Source: a virus
IMG/VR virus record: IMGVR_UViG_3300042523_000751
Location: 1-47,329 of that record
DNA length: 47,329 bases
Direction: 5' to 3' (one strand)
The number at the start of each line of letters is the position of its first letter. Within the stretch, counting starts at the first letter, position 1. The notes under the pieces were generated by a model that worked only from the letters and a program-made list of their open reading frames with translations, had not been told where the DNA came from and did no database searches. The translations under genes and the position numbers were made by a program. This document shows, piece by piece, positions 3,352 to 47,109 of the stretch.

Positions 3352-3657
3352 TTAGTCTTTTATACTGTTAATAATGGCGTCTTCCTCCTCTTCAGACGTG
3401 ATTGATTCCCATTTGTTCTTAGGACATGACGATGACAAAGAACGTGTCTTAAATGAAAGCTTACAGCCACATTCTCCACAGCAAGGTTGAGTTCCTTTCA
3501 TGTAGCACTTAGAACCCTCTTTATCAATAAAAAAGCAATCCTCGCAGATTGCCATTCTAGATGCTGCAATTTCTTCAATATGCTCCTGCTTGAACATACT
3601 GTTCTTTACACCCTCTAAAATCTTTCCTTTCTCTTTCCAGATTTTTATTAAGTTCAT
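3352..3657 (-). CDS. Cysteine-rich, probably zinc-binding protein
   Basis: A 101-residue protein with at least seven cysteines in residues 38-79 (CEDC, then CYMKG, then CCGECGC, then CPK). This spacing resembles zinc-ribbon or knuckle folds. The N-terminus is basic and helical and the C-terminus is acidic (SEEEEDA). It overlaps the HU-like gene by an ATGA junction, implying translational coupling. The specific partner, nucleic acid or protein, cannot be told from sequence. Confidence 0.7.
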   Translation of the reverse strand: MNLIKIWKEKGKILEGVKNSMFKQEHIEEIAASRMAICEDCFFIDKEGSKCYMKGTQPCCGECGCKLSFKTRSLSSSCPKNKWESITSEEEEDAIINSIKD

Positions 3658-4043
3658 GATTTGTTATTTTTATAGGTTATTTTTTCTTGTTGTTTCTCTT
3701 GCTTCTTAACATCTAACTTGTCAAGTTCTGCAAGAATGTTTTCAAATTTCTGTATGTCAGCTTTAAGTTCCATGATTGACTTGAATTGAGCCATGTCTGG
3801 TTGCTTTATACTTTCATACTTTTCTAGAGACTTCCTGTATATCATTAATTTTTCTTCTAACTTTGGACGCTTGACGAAAAACGTACCTAAGTTATCTACT
3901 GTAATACTTGGAAACTCTAACTGACTAAGTTTTCTCTGAATCATGTTGTAATAACAAGATACTATTTCGTCAACTGTTTCTGAAGACAAATTTAATCTTT
4001 CTGCAACTTTCTCAGAAATCTCTTTACGCTTTATTGGTCTCAA
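3654..4043 (-). CDS. HU/IHF-like DNA-binding protein with helical extension
   Basis: A 129-residue protein. Residues 1-60 follow the HU/IHF pattern: a basic start, two amphipathic helices (KRKEISEKVAERLNLS) and the strand-turn ITVDNLGTFFVK, matching the 'GFGTF' turn of HU proteins. The remaining 70 residues are a charged, probably coiled helix that replaces the usual beta-arm half, so it is not a canonical HU. IHF-like subunits are known in crAss-like phages, which is one reason to suspect that lineage. It overlaps both neighbouring genes. Confidence 0.6.
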   Translation of the reverse strand: MRPIKRKEISEKVAERLNLSSETVDEIVSCYYNMIQRKLSQLEFPSITVDNLGTFFVKRPKLEEKLMIYRKSLEKYESIKQPDMAQFKSIMELKADIQKFENILAELDKLDVKKQEKQQEKITYKNNKS

Positions 4044-4419
4044 GAGCTAAAAATTTATAATCTAACATCACGTTACCAGAACTTAATACAGGTACAGACA
4101 TTGCTATCTCTATAGTTTTCTTGAAGGTATCTGACTTTTTTATCAGACCACGCTTTTCTAGTTTTGTTAGTTTGTTTCGCACATTCTGAGACTTTACACC
4201 AAACTCCTCTGGACTAACATCAGGATACGTATTTTTGACAGTTAAGTTACAAAACTTTGTCAAATCTACTGGCCCCTCAATGGCCAAAAGCGTAAGCAGT
4301 TCTAAATCAGTGTCAATAAGATTCTCTTTCTTAAAGAACACAAACTCAGTTATGACCTGATACTTAACCAGGTCATAATGAGTCAATCTGTACTTTTTTT
4401 CAACTTTAGTTACTTCCAT
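4024..4419 (-). CDS. Winged-helix-like regulatory protein (putative)
   Basis: A 131-residue protein. The segment SQNVRNKLTKLEKRGLIKKS (about residues 80-99) has the recognition-helix-plus-wing pattern of MarR/ArsR-type winged helices, preceded by a helical region (LELLTLLAIEGPVDL). An upstream in-frame ATG at 4428 is also possible; I chose 4419 because it gives a smaller overlap with the preceding gene. Its operon position beside HU-like and packaging genes suggests a late-gene regulator or accessory DNA-binding protein. No family match can be claimed without a profile search. Confidence 0.55.
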   Translation of the reverse strand: MEVTKVEKKYRLTHYDLVKYQVITEFVFFKKENLIDTDLELLTLLAIEGPVDLTKFCNLTVKNTYPDVSPEEFGVKSQNVRNKLTKLEKRGLIKKSDTFKKTIEIAMSVPVLSSGNVMLDYKFLALETNKA

Positions 4420-7056: not shown

Positions 7057-7146
7057 ATGTACAAAACATACTACATTGCAGGAGTACAAATCATTGCATT
7101 GTCTTTGTCAGAAGCATACGCTTACTACAGAGATAATTGCAAGTGA
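7057..7146 (+). CDS. Microprotein (29 aa), TYYIAG type
   Basis: A 29-residue reading frame beginning MYKTYYIAGVQI and ending YRDNCK. Support: its pattern (aromatic-I-x-G-x2-I-x-A-x-S/T-x2-E-A-Y-x2-Y) is shared with the 31-residue gene at 23870-23965, and a leader motif found before two larger genes precedes it. It could be a tiny regulatory or inhibitor peptide. A chance frame is possible at this length. Confidence 0.45.
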   Translation: MYKTYYIAGVQIIALSLSEAYAYYRDNCK

Positions 7147-7153
7147 TTTCAAA

Positions 7154-7178
7154 GACGTGGTGGGATGCCACGTGCCTG
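7154..7178 (+). other. Hairpin followed by a palindrome in the leader
   Basis: A 6-bp stem (ACGTGG/CCACGT, loop TGGGATG) is directly followed by the palindrome CTGCGCAG. There is no T tract, so it is not a classical terminator. It lies in the 224-base stretch between the microprotein and the gene at 7371, which otherwise holds leader motif copy 2 and a promoter. Confidence 0.45.
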
Positions 7179-7265
7179 CGCAGGACGAACCACAGAGTGT
7201 CATACATGATGCTCTGTGTTTCTATTAACCTGTTGTCCAACACACATTGCCTTGCACGTTGTACA

Positions 7266-7287
7266 CCACAACTCCCAAGATATTCAG
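7266..7287 (+). repeat. Leader motif copy 2
   Basis: The block CCACAAC-CCCAA-ATTCAG is nearly identical to 8659-8680. The related TTGTCCAACAC also precedes both copies (7233-7243 and 8649-8659), but here 22 extra bases separate the two halves. It lies upstream of the paralogous gene at 7371. Confidence 0.6.
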
Positions 7288-7303
7288 GCATCAGTACTAT
7301 GGC

Positions 7304-7334
7304 CTTTAGAATTATAGTACACATTTTATATTTG
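7304..7334 (+). promoter_or_regulatory. Promoter for the gene at 7371
   Basis: TATATTTG (7327-7334) matches the -7 consensus. The -33 site 19 bases upstream is TTTA, one mismatch from TTTG. The leader to the ATG is about 36 bases. Confidence 0.6.
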
Positions 7335-7370
7335 AACCTTTTGGTGCTTAGGTCAACCATTCCCACGATT

Positions 7371-7862
7371 ATGGCAACAAACGCTGTAACTATCAAAGCT
7401 AATGCTAAAGGAGTATTAGTAAACGTGTATTCAACAAACAAAGAGTTTGGATACATTGTCCTGGAAACCGTTGCAACCTCTTTTGAGAAGGGTTGGATAC
7501 GTGATTCTAAGCGCACATGCCTTATGAGAGGTACTGTTGCACGCTTAGAAGATTTGGTCGCTGCTACCAAAACACTTCCAGGACGCATAGCAGTGCGCGA
7601 GTATCTTGAGGATGAAATTCCTGCTGATGTCGCAAAGTCTAACCTGCGCGATGACATCAGTCTTGAGGAAGCTCTTGAGCCTTACTTGAAACGCGCAGGT
7701 CAAGATGGCGTTCACCTTACCAAAGGTGGAAAGCGTATCGTGAGATTCACAGAGTATGATGGAGCGGGTATTACCCAAGACATCATCATCTCTCACGATA
7801 ACATCGCTGAGGTGGCTGCTTCCAAAGCAGAGGGTGCTAAATCAGAGGACGCACCATTCTAA
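7371..7862 (+). CDS. Conserved phage protein, paralogue A
   Basis: A 163-residue protein of unknown function. I chose ATG 7371 because it follows the promoter and aligns with the start of the paralogue at 8704. Shared blocks are the NKEFGYIVLE-type strand, GWIRDSKRTCLMRG, a PGRI-REYLE region, an IPADVAK helix and a C-terminal ISHDN. The region between the repeats reads as a soluble beta/alpha protein. The pattern is one I associate with Bacteroidota phages; an abundant DNA-associated protein is possible but unproven. A strong terminator follows. Confidence 0.8.
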   Translation: MATNAVTIKANAKGVLVNVYSTNKEFGYIVLETVATSFEKGWIRDSKRTCLMRGTVARLEDLVAATKTLPGRIAVREYLEDEIPADVAKSNLRDDISLEEALEPYLKRAGQDGVHLTKGGKRIVRFTEYDGAGITQDIIISHDNIAEVAASKAEGAKSEDAPF

Positions 7863-15873: not shown

Positions 15874-17160
15874 ATGATCCTATTGCAAACAATTATTGAA
15901 GGTACAAGCTACCAATTGAAAACACTTCCTGGACAAAAGTTTGAGAAAAAACTTACAAGAAGCATTGAAGACTTGAAAATTACAGGTCCTATTGCTGAAT
16001 TTGCTAAGTTTCCACTAGGAACAGTGTTTGTGGCAGATGAGTATGACTTCCCAGAAGATGATCACTTACATATCATGAAAGAACATGTTCACGCATTATT
16101 CTTTGAGAAATCTGTTTTTCCTATATCAGTATTGGGAGAAGAGAAAATTCAAGAGATTTGTGACTTTGCTATTGACTATATGTTGGATAGTGGTACACAT
16201 AATATTGATGATGTAAGACATATTGCTGACCAATTTGCAGCGTATGGTTACAAATTTGACTGGGATGAGAAAACTGCTGTTAAACCTATTGAGGAAGGAG
16301 AGATTCCAAGTGGTACAAACATTAAACGTACCATTGCCACTCACTATCCAGTTCCAAAACGTGAGGATTGTGGATTCCACATTGATCCAGACATTTGGTT
16401 CTTGATGGTACGTAATGTATTACGTGGAGAGAATACTTTGTTAGTAGGACCTACAGGTTCTGGTAAAACAGAGATTCTTAAGCACTTAGCAAAAGCTATG
16501 GGTAAAGAACTACATACTCAAGATATGGGTACAGTTCAAGATGCTCAGTCTGCATTGTTAGGTGTTCACCGCATCAACAAAGAAGGGCATTCAGCATTTG
16601 ACTATGCTCCTTTTGTTGGACACATTCAGTCTGGAGGTATTATTCTTTTAGATGAGTTGAATCGTTCACCACTTGCTGCAAATAACATTTTGTTTCCTTG
16701 TTTGGATAGCAGACGTTATTTGCCAGTTGACATCGCTTGCGATGACTGTGAAAGAACTATTCCTGTATCTGATGGAACAGTATTTTTTGCAACCGCTAAC
16801 CTTGGTTCTGAGTATTCTGGTACTCAAGCAATAGATAGAGCGTTATTAGACCGCTTCTTTCCTATTGAGCTTGATTATCCAAGACTTGAGGATGAGGTTA
16901 AAATCTTGATGTTACGTACTGGCGTTGAGGAAAAGGCTGCAACAGCAATCGTTAAAGTATCCAATGAGATACGTAAACAGTACAAAGAGCAGGAATTATC
17001 TTCTGCGATTTCAGTTCGTCACACACTTCAGGCAGCTAGTTTGGTGTCTGATGGGTTTGAGGTAGACAAAGCATTGCTTTCTACTATTATGCCATTGTTT
17101 GAGGATGGTATAGGCGTGTCTGAGCGTAGTAAGGTACTTTCCATAGTATCTGCGTTCTAA
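15874..17160 (+). CDS. MoxR-family AAA+ ATPase (CobS-like)
   Basis: A 428-residue AAA+ ATPase. Residues 1-175 are a phage-specific N-terminal domain. Then come Walker A GPTGSGKT (192-199), Walker B GGIILLDE (254-261), sensor 1 in FATANLG (305-311, Asn309) and an arginine-finger region ALLDRFF (323-329). This is the MoxR/CobS branch, whose members use ATP to remodel partners or insert metal together with VWA-domain proteins. The next gene encodes such a VWA protein, strongly supporting a two-component MoxR-VWA system. The substrate in a phage is unknown. Confidence 0.85.
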   Translation: MILLQTIIEGTSYQLKTLPGQKFEKKLTRSIEDLKITGPIAEFAKFPLGTVFVADEYDFPEDDHLHIMKEHVHALFFEKSVFPISVLGEEKIQEICDFAIDYMLDSGTHNIDDVRHIADQFAAYGYKFDWDEKTAVKPIEEGEIPSGTNIKRTIATHYPVPKREDCGFHIDPDIWFLMVRNVLRGENTLLVGPTGSGKTEILKHLAKAMGKELHTQDMGTVQDAQSALLGVHRINKEGHSAFDYAPFVGHIQSGGIILLDELNRSPLAANNILFPCLDSRRYLPVDIACDDCERTIPVSDGTVFFATANLGSEYSGTQAIDRALLDRFFPIELDYPRLEDEVKILMLRTGVEEKAATAIVKVSNEIRKQYKEQELSSAISVRHTLQAASLVSDGFEVDKALLSTIMPLFEDGIGVSERSKVLSIVSAF

Positions 17161-17251: not shown

Positions 17252-19120
17252 ATGAGCAAATTTGCTAAAGACTGGTTTGGTAGGAGAAAAGAAGAAGCCT
17301 ATACATACACAGACAACAGAAACAGATTCTTCAATTGGGATAGTGGAAGAAGCAGTTATTCTTCTTATTTTACAAAGTCTAGCGATAGTCTTCAAACATC
17401 TGCAAAGATGATTGGATCTATGTTTAGAGTTATTGGAGTTCCCAAAACATTTGACTATAAAGCTTCTGAACCTAAGAAGAATACAGATTTGCAAATTCCT
17501 ATCCACATGTTAAAAGATGAGGATGGAAAGTTTCGCGATCCAGATCCAGAAATATTAGATGCATTTTATGGTGCTGCAATTCAAAATGCTGCGCTTGCTT
17601 CTATGCAAACAACAAGTGAGTATGGTAAATCTGTCACATGTAGAAATACAGGTAGAACTGGCTTTTCTTTGAAGGATTATATGTTTAGTATTTTAAATAC
17701 TGAGCGTATTGACAAGAAGTTGGCTAATAGATTGCCTGGATACTTAAAGTTTGTTCAAAAGTATAAGGATCACTTGTATGACAAGAACTATGAACCAGTG
17801 GGTCCAGAAGAGAAAGCTCAGAAAAGATTACTTGATCTTGTCACAAGGATGTTAAGATATCCTGCAAATGTGACTGAAGAAGAACTTGATGAGTTTGCTA
17901 AACCATTAAAGCAAATTGAGAGATTACTCAAAAAGCATGGTGGTATTCCAGAAACATCAGACGACTGTTCTTCTATGGCTTCTAGTCTTGCTAATATCGT
18001 ATACAAGTACGTTGAAGAAGAGGAAGAGCCACCAGGCAGTGGAGGAAGTGATGGTGATGATGATGGTGATGATGAGAATGAAGGTGAATCTCCTTCAGGT
18101 TCTGGAAGTTCTCCTGGCGATTCAACGATGGATAAGTCTGAGATAAATGAACTTGCCAAAGAAATGATGAAAGCCACTTTTGGTGAGGATGAATCAAGTG
18201 AAAGTGACTCAGAAGAAATGTCAGCTTTTAATGACTTTGTAGATGAAATGACTAATGAGCCAACAAACACTAAGCCTAATATGGATTATAGTGAAGAAGG
18301 TTCTGCTAGTGATGGAAGTGTTACTTTCATTAAGTCTGATTCTAACAAAGCAAGATATCAGTCTTGTTTAAAGAGGATTGATACAACAAAAGCTACTGTA
18401 CTTCGCAAGTTATTTCAACGCAAAAGCAAAGATTATCAGTTTTCTATGAAGTCTATGCGTTCTGGTAGATTAGATACCAACAAGATTGCTGAGGCAGCGC
18501 AAAGAGTACCAACTGTATATGAACGTTATGGTCAAGTAAAGACTGATGACATTTGTGTAGGTGTTCTTATTGATGAGTCAGGTTCTATGAGTGGTACTAA
18601 GATAGACAAAGCGCGTGAAGCTGCAGTGTTTATCAATGAAGTATTCAAAGGAATGCGCGATGTCAAACTGTATATCTATGGTCATACTGCTGATGAGAGA
18701 GGTTATGGGTCAACTCAAATAAGAGTTTATCGTGAACCAGGTTCTCATACAGATACATATGCATTAGGTTCAGTAGAAGCAAGAAGTAATAACCGTGATG
18801 GTGATGCAATTCTTGCTACTGCCAAACGTATTAGAAAACAGACAGAAAACCCAGGTATTTTGTTTGTTCTTTCTGATGGTCAGCCTTCTGCACATGACTA
18901 CAATGGTAAAGAAGCCATTAATGATACTCGTGCAAAAGTGACTAAAGCACAAAATCTTGGGTTTCAAGTCATTCAGATTGCAATAGAGGAGTCAGTTCCT
19001 TCAGCTCAAATGTTTGACTACTTTATCAAGATGACAGATATCAAAAATCTACCAAGAGAAATGGTAGGATACATGTCGCGTAAAGTAGACAAGTTGATTA
19101 GAGAAAGAGTCACATTGTAA
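17252..19120 (+). CDS. VWA-domain protein, CobT-like partner of the MoxR ATPase
   Basis: A 622-residue protein. The N-terminal half (about 1-250) is helical; an acidic/serine-glycine linker spans about 254-325; a conserved SGRLDTNKI block (404-412) precedes the C-terminal VWA domain. Its MIDAS motif DESGS lies at residues 441-445 (GVLIDESGSMSG), with further MIDAS parts downstream (ILFVLSDGQPS). The layout of acidic linker, SGRLD block and VWA is that of CobT-type proteins that act with CobS/MoxR ATPases. No cobalamin genes are nearby, so remodelling of a protein complex is more likely than metal chelation. Confidence 0.85.
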   Translation: MSKFAKDWFGRRKEEAYTYTDNRNRFFNWDSGRSSYSSYFTKSSDSLQTSAKMIGSMFRVIGVPKTFDYKASEPKKNTDLQIPIHMLKDEDGKFRDPDPEILDAFYGAAIQNAALASMQTTSEYGKSVTCRNTGRTGFSLKDYMFSILNTERIDKKLANRLPGYLKFVQKYKDHLYDKNYEPVGPEEKAQKRLLDLVTRMLRYPANVTEEELDEFAKPLKQIERLLKKHGGIPETSDDCSSMASSLANIVYKYVEEEEEPPGSGGSDGDDDGDDENEGESPSGSGSSPGDSTMDKSEINELAKEMMKATFGEDESSESDSEEMSAFNDFVDEMTNEPTNTKPNMDYSEEGSASDGSVTFIKSDSNKARYQSCLKRIDTTKATVLRKLFQRKSKDYQFSMKSMRSGRLDTNKIAEAAQRVPTVYERYGQVKTDDICVGVLIDESGSMSGTKIDKAREAAVFINEVFKGMRDVKLYIYGHTADERGYGSTQIRVYREPGSHTDTYALGSVEARSNNRDGDAILATAKRIRKQTENPGILFVLSDGQPSAHDYNGKEAINDTRAKVTKAQNLGFQVIQIAIEESVPSAQMFDYFIKMTDIKNLPREMVGYMSRKVDKLIRERVTL

Positions 19121-44093: not shown

Positions 44094-44555
44094 TTATTTG
44101 TATGGAAGATACTTAGTAGCTCCTCCTTGCTTTACAGCTTTCAAGATTTGCTTGCGTTGTTTTCCAGTTGACTCATAAGATACGTGTACCCAGTCAGGAT
44201 TTTTGTCAGTACCAAATTCCCAAATCATTTGGTCAAAGTTCAAGTTGTCTTTGATAAAGTTAAAGATTTGAGCATTGGTCACTGCTGTACCATCCATGTC
44301 AATATCAATTGCTTCACCCTGGCAATGTTGAGAGGTCAAACTCCCTCCAATAGCAGTATTCAAAGCTTTGCTTCTGTACCCAGATGAGATGTGTATAGGA
44401 ACACCAAAGTGATCACGTATAGGTTGGAACACATTCTCAGCTAACTTTTTAAAGTTCTCAATGTGTTCAGGAGTTGGCATATTACTAATGCCTTTTCTCT
44501 TTGCAGTTTCACTTCTTGTTACTTCTGCTAATGCTAGATTTTTACTTAGTTGCAT
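44094..44555 (-). CDS. M15-family D-Ala-D-Ala carboxypeptidase/endolysin
   Basis: A 153-residue peptidoglycan peptidase. The metal and catalytic motif is SGYRSKALNTAI (58-69), then TSQHCQGEAIDID (74-86; His77, Asp84), then DWVHVSY (121-127; His124). This is the M15_3 pattern of peptidases that cut peptide stems. With the lysozyme upstream, it would attack peptidoglycan at a different bond. Confidence 0.85.
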   Translation of the reverse strand: MQLSKNLALAEVTRSETAKRKGISNMPTPEHIENFKKLAENVFQPIRDHFGVPIHISSGYRSKALNTAIGGSLTSQHCQGEAIDIDMDGTAVTNAQIFNFIKDNLNFDQMIWEFGTDKNPDWVHVSYESTGKQRKQILKAVKQGGATKYLPYK

Positions 44556-44559
44556 ATGT

Positions 44560-45018
44560 TTATTTTTTAAAGTACAAGTTTGCTTCAGCCTCTCTACGTC
44601 TAACTAAACCAGCTAGTGTTTTACCACCTGCTTTTACCCACTTCATGAATTCTAATCTGATAGATTCATCATTAGGGTTAGCGTTTACTTTTTTAAGTAA
44701 CGTAGAAGATTTTAAATTTGCTGGTCCTAAGTTGTAAGCAAATGAAACTAATGCATCAAACTGATTCTGTGTAATAGTATCTACACAGTAGCTGTCTACA
44801 TATTTCTCAAAGCTCACAAGCATATTTGCCAATAATTCAACAGCCTGCTCTTCTGTTATAGCTGCATCCGTCATTGTTACCTTTTTACCACCAGGATAAA
44901 ATGTAGCTCCATATCCAATTGTAGGAACACCTGCGGAACATTTGTAAGGAGCTGCTCTGAACCCTTCAAATGCTTTGATTAAATCAATCCCTGGTTTCGC
45001 TGTTTTTGTTACTTTCAT
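44560..45018 (-). CDS. GH24 lysozyme (muramidase)
   Basis: A 152-residue lysozyme of the T4 type. Catalytic spacing E-x8-D/C-x5-T is kept as E18, C27, T33 in GFRAAPYKCSAGVPTIGYGA; the usual Asp is Cys here. ALVSFAYNLG (near residue 90) and a C-terminal VRRREAEANLY helix are typical of the family. T4 variants with Cys at this position are known to keep activity, so it may well be active. It overlaps the holin-like gene by 35 bases. Confidence 0.85.
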   Translation of the reverse strand: MKVTKTAKPGIDLIKAFEGFRAAPYKCSAGVPTIGYGATFYPGGKKVTMTDAAITEEQAVELLANMLVSFEKYVDSYCVDTITQNQFDALVSFAYNLGPANLKSSTLLKKVNANPNDESIRLEFMKWVKAGGKTLAGLVRRREAEANLYFKK

Positions 45019-45259
45019 CTTTATTCTTTTTTTTAAGTGACATGACTCTACCTACTGTTGTAATTCCAAATGCACCAAGAGTGATAATCATAAAGCCATC
45101 AAAGATGAATTCTTTTATGACAAGTTCATTTCCCCAGATGCCTGTAACTACATCAACTGTTAAAATAAATACCATAGCAAAAAATGCTACTACACCTACA
45201 AAGGTTTGCTCATTGATGTGATTGTTATCAGATATAAGCTCTCTAAAAAACTTTTTCAT
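44984..45259 (-). CDS. Holin-like small membrane protein
   Basis: A 91-residue protein from ATG 45259. Two hydrophobic segments (about residues 18-38 and 46-69, FVGVVAFFAMVFILTVDVV and IFDGFMIITLGAFGI) are followed by a charged tail (KKKNKDESNKNSE). This topology plus its position before the lysozyme makes a holin the best guess. Overlap with the lysozyme gives coupled expression. Confidence 0.65.
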   Translation of the reverse strand: MKKFFRELISDNNHINEQTFVGVVAFFAMVFILTVDVVTGIWGNELVIKEFIFDGFMIITLGAFGITTVGRVMSLKKKNKDESNKNSETRD

Positions 45260-45263
45260 AATC

Positions 45264-46379
45264 TTACTTTTTTTCTTTGCTGCCTTCCTGAGTAGCATAC
45301 TTGATACCCATTATTGTACCAACTATAGAAAAGGCATTTGTTAATAATACACTAAACATGTTACTCCATGTTGAACCAATAATCTGCGTGTCTTGATTTG
45401 TTACAATGGCCATCCAGTATAACACAGTTGTTACAGCCCCCACTCCTACTATAACAGACAACGCAACTTTGACAATTATTTTTATTAGCTCACTTTGACT
45501 TTTCTTCATCATTACATCCAAGTCATTTAAAGCTGCATCTTTTTCTATCTCTATTGCATTTTTAAGCTTTTGAGAATTAGCAAGTTCTATTTGCAAGTTT
45601 TTTGTAAGGTCATCTATTTTTGCCTTATTAGTAACAGCTTCAGTAACATCAGTTGCAATTTTAACTACATCTGTAATATTTCCTTTGCTGTCAAATACAG
45701 GATTGTAAGATGCTTGTAAGTAAACAGTAGAACCATCTACCTTTTTTCTTTCAAAGATTCCATCAAAGAACTTACCTTTTCGTAAGTTTTCCCAGAACTT
45801 AGCATACTCATCAGATTTGGAATACTCATAACTTACAAAAACGCTGTGATGTTTACCAATGACTTTAGCTTTTTCATTGCCTTTATAACCCATGGTTTCT
45901 AAGAATATAGAATTCACATCTGTTATAAATCCATCAACGTTAAAACTAATCAGAGCAGTGCTTCTGTCAATAGCATCTATTTGTTTTTTGCTATTAACAA
46001 TTATAGTTATGTCAGTAGCAATTTTCATTATCTTGGTAATCTTACCATCCTCATTTAAAATAGGATTATAAGTTGCTTGAAGATTAATAAGAGTTCCATC
46101 TTTTTTTCTTCTTTCAAACTCTCCAGTGTAGTATTTACCACTTCTTAAGATGTCCCAAAACTTTTCATACTCAAGTGATCTAGAATAATCATCACATACA
46201 AAAATGCTATGGTGTTTGCCAATGATATCTTCATGATTACCTTTGCCATAACCCATTGCCTCTAGAAAAATGTCATTAACCCCTGTGATAATACCACCAA
46301 GGTCAAAGTAGATAATAGCGTTGCTTCTATTGATCGCTTCAAGTCTACTTAATAATTCTTCTTTTGGGAGATTTTTCAC
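45264..46379 (-). CDS. Tandem-PAS membrane sensor-like protein in the lysis cassette
   Basis: A 371-residue protein. Two PAS domains of the Aer/BdlA type lie at about 10-125 and 133-248; each contains GKHHS(I/V)F, FER(R/K)K-DG, and Q(A)(T/S)YNP(I/V) followed by KIATD(I/V)T. A coiled coil follows (255-300), then two transmembrane segments (302-325, 338-360) and a short tail. PAS domains of this type sense redox or small molecules through bound cofactors such as heme or flavin, though no cofactor residue is assigned here. The C-terminal membrane part resembles a holin-like module. Sensing coupled to lysis control is an inference. Confidence 0.75.
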   Translation of the reverse strand: MKNLPKEELLSRLEAINRSNAIIYFDLGGIITGVNDIFLEAMGYGKGNHEDIIGKHHSIFVCDDYSRSLEYEKFWDILRSGKYYTGEFERRKKDGTLINLQATYNPILNEDGKITKIMKIATDITIIVNSKKQIDAIDRSTALISFNVDGFITDVNSIFLETMGYKGNEKAKVIGKHHSVFVSYEYSKSDEYAKFWENLRKGKFFDGIFERKKVDGSTVYLQASYNPVFDSKGNITDVVKIATDVTEAVTNKAKIDDLTKNLQIELANSQKLKNAIEIEKDAALNDLDVMMKKSQSELIKIIVKVALSVIVGVGAVTTVLYWMAIVTNQDTQIIGSTWSNMFSVLLTNAFSIVGTIMGIKYATQEGSKEKK

Positions 46380-46636
46380 TATTTACTTATTAATTGCCTT
46401 ACTGTATCTGCCAAATCTCCCACATTCTTTGCTAGATTTTTAATTTCTAACTGAGTTTGCTCTTGAATAGCTTGGTACTTTAATCTTGATTCTTGTTCTA
46501 CAAGTTCAATTTTTCCTTTAAGTTTACCTTGTTCTTCTGTGTTTTTGCGCACATCACTGTGTACAATTTTTAAAAAGTATCCAATAACAGTCACAGCTGT
46601 GCCTAGGATAAACATTACGATATCTGAACTTGTCAT
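46379..46636 (-). CDS. Membrane-anchored coiled-coil protein of the lysis cassette
   Basis: An 85-residue protein with one N-terminal transmembrane helix (residues 5-24) and a long coiled coil (KNTEEQGKLKGKIELVEQES). Similar layouts occur for inner-membrane spanin subunits or small holin-associated proteins. It overlaps the PAS gene by one base. Confidence 0.6.
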   Translation of the reverse strand: MTSSDIVMFILGTAVTVIGYFLKIVHSDVRKNTEEQGKLKGKIELVEQESRLKYQAIQEQTQLEIKNLAKNVGDLADTVRQLISK

Positions 46637-47109
46637 TTTCTAAACTGTTTGATGATTAATAAGATTGCAACTAAGATTATAGAAAGGAACAGCATCCACC
46701 AGGGAAACCCTGATCTTTCTGTATACTTTGTTTTTTTAGTTTCAGCTTTGGTATTTTGCTTATTAATCTTAACTGCTGCAGATAATGAGTCATTATACAT
46801 TCTAGCCATGATTTTCAGTGAGTCTTTGAATCTCTTATTATCAAATCTAGTTTGCCATCTGGTTTGCCATCTTGTTTCTACAGTGGCTTCTGGACAATTG
46901 CAGGGTACTTGGGAAGTAATATAGATTAATGAGTCTTTACCATCTTTGCCTTTGACAACTATGGTATCTGTTTTTTCTACATAGATTGTATCACAAGTGA
47001 TTTTACCACCTTTGGAATAGAACTTATCCAAATGGTATTTAGCATTGTGACAACTAGATACAATAGCTAACAATGACAATAATGTAAGTAGTACAAAAAG
47101 TTTTTTCAT
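46633..47109 (-). CDS. Candidate unimolecular spanin (lipoprotein with C-terminal TM)
   Basis: A 158-residue protein. The N-terminal signal peptide ends in a lipobox with Cys20 (LLAIVSSC); the C-terminus (about 133-155, FPWWMLFLSIILVAILLII) is a transmembrane helix. A long polar linker with a short TRWQ tandem repeat joins them. Outer-membrane lipid anchor plus inner-membrane anchor is the u-spanin plan that fuses the two membranes in the last step of lysis. First gene of the lysis cassette. Confidence 0.75.
   Translation of the reverse strand: MKKLFVLLTLLSLLAIVSSCHNAKYHLDKFYSKGGKITCDTIYVEKTDTIVVKGKDGKDSLIYITSQVPCNCPEATVETRWQTRWQTRFDNKRFKDSLKIMARMYNDSLSAAVKINKQNTKAETKKTKYTERSGFPWWMLFLSIILVAILLIIKQFRK

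Follow-up and report, generated by a model that had tools for sequence, protein, structure and literature searches.

Why does a phage keep a double PAS sensor among the genes with which it bursts its host? The question is raised by a gene, called T here, in a 47,329-base virus record (IMG/VR record IMGVR_UViG_3300042523_000751), the whole of which is referred to as the window. The window carries a terminase of the crAss-like type (phrog_6681, 8e-61), and the named records that are nearest to it are crAss-like phages. T belongs to an operon of six minus-strand genes, in which neighbours overlap or are separated by gaps of a few bases (Table 1). The gene order is lipoprotein, 85-aa transmembrane (TM) and coiled-coil protein, T, c1, lysozyme, and M15 peptidase. 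A preliminary description of this DNA had proposed a lysis cassette on one strand that includes a holin. The lysozyme, the M15 peptidase, the lipoprotein, the TM and coiled-coil gene, and c1 are all in place, and the word holin describes topology only. c1 has no profile match in Pfam, PHROG, or NCBIfam, and Pfam and PHROG gave none for the lipoprotein. Elsewhere in the window, on the plus strand, a gene for a CbbQ/MoxR-type AAA ATPase (15874-17160) is followed by one for a CobT/VWA-domain protein (17252-19120), which makes a cobaltochelatase-like pair in a crAss-like phage.

Table 1. Gene T, its parts, and the neighbouring genes in the window (residue numbers are those of the T protein).
Feature	Position	Strand	Details
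Endolysin, M15 peptidase	44094..44555	-	PF08291 2e-21
Endolysin, phage lysozyme	44560..45018	-	PF00959 3e-43
c1, small 2-TM holin-like protein	44984..45259	-	likely ATG at 45259; longer ORF to 45298
Gene T	45264..46379	-	371 aa, GTG start; double PAS, coiled coil, two-TM hairpin
Conserved hairpin motif and TM2	45291..45392	-	residues 330-363, DTQIIGSTWSNMFSVLLTNAFSIVGTIMGIKYAT; core near-invariant across all T forms
TM1	45399..45476	-	residues ~302-327; hydropathy and AlphaFold2 model
Signalling helix / coiled coil	45477..45644	-	residues 246-301; runs on into TM1 in the model
PAS domain 2	45630..45983	-	residues ~133-250; FAD-type H178 and W196
PAS domain 1	45996..46346	-	residues ~12-128; FAD-type H57 and W75
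85-aa protein, N-terminal TM and coiled coil	46379..46636	-	overlaps start of T
158-aa lipoprotein, C-terminal TM	46633..47109	-	u-spanin-like by layout

Two PAS stretches are found in T by Pfam (PAS_3, E=9.4e-24, and PAS_9, 1.5e-20; PF08447 and PF13426, both over the curated cut-offs) and by NCBIfam (TIGR00229 sensory_box, 2.4e-27), and the two PAS halves are tandem repeats of each other. An AlphaFold2 model built from 28 relatives (pLDDT 75, pTM 0.40) has two PAS folds, a single helix (246-327) that leads via the coiled coil into TM1, and a second helix (332-368). When the model is compared with the PDB by Foldseek, the top match is 3ewk, the tandem PAS redox sensor of MmoS (E=8e-16). Hydropathy also places two TM segments at the C-terminus. 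The domain layout given in the preliminary description, two PAS domains, a coiled coil, and two C-terminal TM segments, is thus confirmed by profiles, fold, and hydropathy. TM2 is polar, rich in small residues, and near-invariant. Because Lys-rich stretches lie on both outer flanks of the TM pair, its two ends are read as cytoplasmic, as the flanking lysines suggest. T has no methyl-accepting signalling domain in Pfam or NCBIfam. The HATPase domain of a histidine kinase is likewise not found in the window protein by Pfam.

What the PAS domains may sense is indicated by a few residues. In PAS domains that bind FAD, a Trp on helix F-alpha is the main determinant, and a His and/or Asn is the second (PMC10468136). 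Both PAS domains of BdlA are predicted to bind FAD (PMC8694187). Alignment with Aer identifies the equivalents of the Trp and the His in each PAS domain of T (Table 1), and the position of the Asn is occupied by Arg. The His and Trp are present in all 168 T PAS copies matched by motif search, and in all 12 matched copies from the kinases described below. T therefore has the residues that mark the FAD-type redox PAS domains of Aer, AerC, MmoS, and NifL. Our best guess is that the PAS domains of T bind FAD and sense redox by means of it. Since the His and Trp pair is conserved, redox state read via FAD would be the likeliest signal of T, and the earlier suggestion of a redox sensor gains support from the presence of these determinants.

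A scan of viral contigs gives 176 relatives of T, the best 80 of which are 83-100% identical to it over nearly the full length. An endolysin or holin-like gene lies within three genes of T in 72 of the 74 distinct double-PAS loci and in 15 of 15 distinct single-PAS loci. Among 224 control genes taken from these loci, the same holds for 13 (6%). The PAS forms of T thus have a conserved position by endolysin and holin genes, and the fusion noted in the window recurs in the lysis cassettes of other phages. The sole exception among double-PAS loci with adequate flanks is L033, where T lies away from lysis genes. The neighbourhoods form a mosaic, in which lysozyme, M15, GH19, and peptidoglycan-binding enzymes (Pfam) substitute for one another and c1 may precede or follow the PAS gene.

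Five double-PAS records have the crAss-type terminase at E<1e-55, and two others, L051 and L042, have T4-type Gp23. Judged by these marker genes, the phages that carry double-PAS T are unrelated, being of crAss type and of T4 type. T of the window is 87-88% identical to T of L051 and L042, whereas c1 there is only ~43% identical. The dN/dS ratio of T is ~0.08, similar in each domain, at a synonymous divergence of ~1. By these values, T has been kept by selection while moving between phages. With this ratio and a position conserved in relatives, the signal from T is far more than chance. Exactly one T module per genome is found in 24 of 24 records checked, which include both forms. In three loci (L047 and L048, both at 7138-7740, and L060 at 3520-4140), T adjoins an unrelated protein of ~200 aa with an N-terminal TM segment. 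It looks GAF-like by eye and has no GAF match in Pfam. Its family is very large in viruses (434 pattern hits), and it is possibly another membrane-bound sensor.

Further forms of T were found by a pattern for the conserved GSTWSNMF ahead of TM2. The coiled coil and hairpin also occur behind one PAS domain, in proteins of ~250 aa (e.g., L205), and behind a GAF domain (L262, PF01590 2.3e-17; a second case is L315). Both GAF-T loci adjoin endolysin or holin-like genes. In L315 (1431-3591, minus strand), GAF-T is preceded by an S-adenosylmethionine decarboxylase-like gene and a GH19-type endolysin. One pattern hit, L168, is false, as the rest of the membrane module is absent.

The most frequent further arrangement is a short form of T, 180-228 aa in total, whose N-terminal stretch is without a known domain. 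It was found in 41 distinct loci in the first scan and in many more in the second. A receiver (REC) gene lies within four genes of short-form T in 40 of these 41 loci. In 36 of them it is directly before T, at a distance of 8 nt or less, and in 28 the frames overlap. A histidine kinase is seen upstream of REC in 33 of the 41. It has PAS domains, sometimes GAF and two PAS domains, plus a HATPase domain. HATPase_c and Response_reg score above the Pfam cut-off, the H-box motif is found in nearly all loci, and the receiver motifs are found in 32-36 of 36. The H box and ATPase in the kinase, together with the Asp, acidic pair, and Lys of the receiver, are those of two-component systems. The REC assignment rests on Pfam and motifs because modelling REC from a single sequence gave a poor result (pLDDT 49). 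Two short-form records carry T4-type Gp23 together with a terminase and two further ones carry Gp23, so the kinase, REC, and short T genes are phage genes. In L227 (6128-9129), REC and T are preceded by two consecutive histidine kinases, of which one has PAS domains and the other a different N-terminal part; this suggests two inputs into one relay.

The PAS domains of these kinases closely resemble those fused to T. Given the order of kinase, REC, and short T, the single gene in the window therefore corresponds elsewhere to three, for the sensor, the relay, and the membrane output. This wiring of sensor to membrane is well supported. Searches of 50,697 phage records and 72,556 plasmids give no match to short-form T, and REC of the short-form loci has none among phage isolates. 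With the C-terminal module as sole query, phage records yield no hit at E<=10. The membrane module also has no significant match in PHROG or Pfam. Its weak but repeated alignment with phrog_1544 (E 0.007-0.09, four members) is below significance.

Does the output concern lysis? T could instead be a membrane signalling protein without a lysis function, which is expressed late together with the lysis genes and serves, for example, in superinfection exclusion or in regulating the respiration or envelope state of the host. Membership in a late operon could by itself explain the position of T, and L033, where lysis genes are absent nearby, and the absence of holin homology agree with such a role. 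So do the kinase-REC-T operons, which are only partly beside lysis genes. A recognised lysis gene lies within five genes in 21 of 41 loci, many of which are truncated (control, 7 of 46), and within 4.5 kb in 13 of 18 loci of a second set. The lysis link of this form is the main doubt. However, the PAS-T loci and the two GAF-T loci are beside endolysin or holin-like genes nearly always, in unrelated phages, and this proximity exceeds what is expected of generic late genes. We consider a role apart from lysis unlikely.

It is also conceivable that T is itself the holin. In this case the hairpin would oligomerise and depolarise the membrane, as a holin or pinholin gated by PAS, GAF, or phospho-REC input, and c1 would be an accessory protein or antiholin. 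A two-TM hairpin whose ends are probably cytoplasmic and whose TM2 has the composition and conservation described above would suit this role, and no TM protein other than T is seen next to the endolysin in L074, L224, and L243. Profiles speak against it. T has no holin match in Pfam, PHROG, or NCBIfam, and the membrane module is rejected as a homologue of c1, its profile not matching the neighbouring small 2-TM proteins (3.7% probability). The holin assignment of the membrane part in the preliminary description is thus not upheld, and "holin-like", said of T, refers to topology as predicted from sequence and not to homology. Most phages with T also carry a separate holin candidate, and Phage_holin_4_1 is present alongside T in many loci. 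Relatives of c1 are found elsewhere in several genomes where T is beside the endolysin (e.g., L224, L047, L190, and L196), which weakens the case for T as sole holin. A regulator is favoured over a holin because the hairpin has no detectable kinship to c1 or holin profiles, and because a relative of c1 exists elsewhere in several genomes where T adjoins the endolysin without c1. We regard a sensor-gated holin as improbable.

That T is an ordinary host regulator, a chemoreceptor or kinase fragment acquired by chance and carried along, is very improbable indeed: PAS domains are widespread among bacteria and phages are known to have single PAS proteins (BFVD matches), but a scan of 84,980 bacterial and archaeal genomes with the sensor part gives a single distant match (28%) and no close bacterial source, T is under strong purifying selection in a fixed lysis position and single copy, and its membrane module is common to several architectures. 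In BFVD, two proteins of uncultured Caudovirales phages match the PAS part of T, A0A6J5L941 ('histidine kinase', 528 aa) at 32% identity and A0A6J5PRT3 (uncharacterised, 218 aa) at 51%; they may be deposited kinase and single-PAS forms. A search of deposited phage, plasmid, and bacterial genomes found no member of the T family. Two matches filed as phage, MT836939 ('Bacteriophage sp.', L082) and OR848229 ('Listeria phage LM 4-14-1', L083), look bacterial. They were dropped as phage relatives because their chemoreceptor, GGDEF/EAL, and RecX-like genes are bacterial content.

We therefore return to T as a phage sensory membrane protein that receives signals of host state and would act on lysis, a reading that we consider probable. 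Its two PAS domains, in the cytoplasm, would read the state of the host, most likely redox via FAD. One helix would carry the change from PAS2 through the coiled coil directly into TM1, presumably in a dimer, and the strongly conserved hairpin (TM2, GSTWSNMF...) would be the output. Because T sits in the lysis operon, the most likely target of this output would be lysis: T might, for instance, hold back or set off the adjacent small holin-like protein, and the energy or redox state of the cell would thereby advance or delay its bursting. In relatives, the same hairpin would be driven by one PAS domain, by GAF, or by a phage histidine kinase and receiver encoded upstream, from which phosphate would pass towards T. 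A change in PAS, GAF, or, for the short form, phospho-REC would shift the helix pair and hairpin. Against this reading stand the hairpin without significant holin or antiholin homology, the low pTM of the model, and the locus off lysis genes (L033). The tuning of lysis timing proposed in the preliminary description stays conditional, and is strengthened by the occurrence of the same module with PAS, GAF, or a phage kinase and receiver pair.

More broadly, the T family may be a phage membrane switch with one hairpin and swappable inputs, by which phages read the redox or metabolic state of the host and set the moment of lysis; we hold the chances of this to be about even. The hosts are probably Bacteroidota. 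Many uncultivated water-dwelling phages carry this membrane protein with a redox-type sensor among their cell-bursting genes. Together with the swaps in related phages, this suggests that these viruses may gauge the condition of their host cell before they burst it. If so, the time of lysis in common aquatic phages would be a physiology-informed decision rather than a fixed clock, and phages would own complete signal-transduction chains for it. An abundant family without significant matches in any isolate collection or profile library checked would also gain its first function. The natural swaps of sensors on one conserved hairpin make this reading testable.

How does T compare with known systems? 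Its PAS, GAF, kinase, and receiver parts are known; within the reach of our searches, neither the common membrane module of these phages nor the wiring is. In the open-access literature, no paper was found on a PAS protein or two-component system of a phage that is connected to a lysis module in the membrane. For this reason, and because the module and short T are without a database match, the wiring is rated new in kind as far as the searches reach, with lysis as its presumed target. The alignment of the C-terminal module with phrog_1544 is too weak to connect it to that family. An Immutovirus isolate (NC_055915) has a c1-like gene, an endolysin, and an annotated holin in that order, with no T between them. 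The PAS histidine kinases MmoS and NifL are the closest solved structures to T by sequence and fold. Unlike them, the window protein has no kinase domain, and the kinase of the short form is a separate phage gene. The chemoreceptors BdlA, AerC, and Aer share with T tandem or single FAD-type PAS domains with the conserved Trp and His, whereas T ends in a membrane hairpin in place of a methyl-accepting signalling domain. In phage T4, RI, like other antiholins, is a membrane protein through which a signal sets lysis time, and it senses in the periplasm. The likeness of T to RI is one of working and not of sequence, and the cytoplasm is the predicted site of sensing for T. In the VqmA-Phage/Qtip system of vibriophage VP882, as in T, a phage gene encodes a PAS protein, here one that responds to a host signal and leads to lysis (PMC8284805). 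While VqmA-Phage is a soluble DNA-binding transcription factor of a temperate phage and responds to the autoinducer DPO (PMC8284805), T is anchored in the membrane and encoded in the lysis operon itself.
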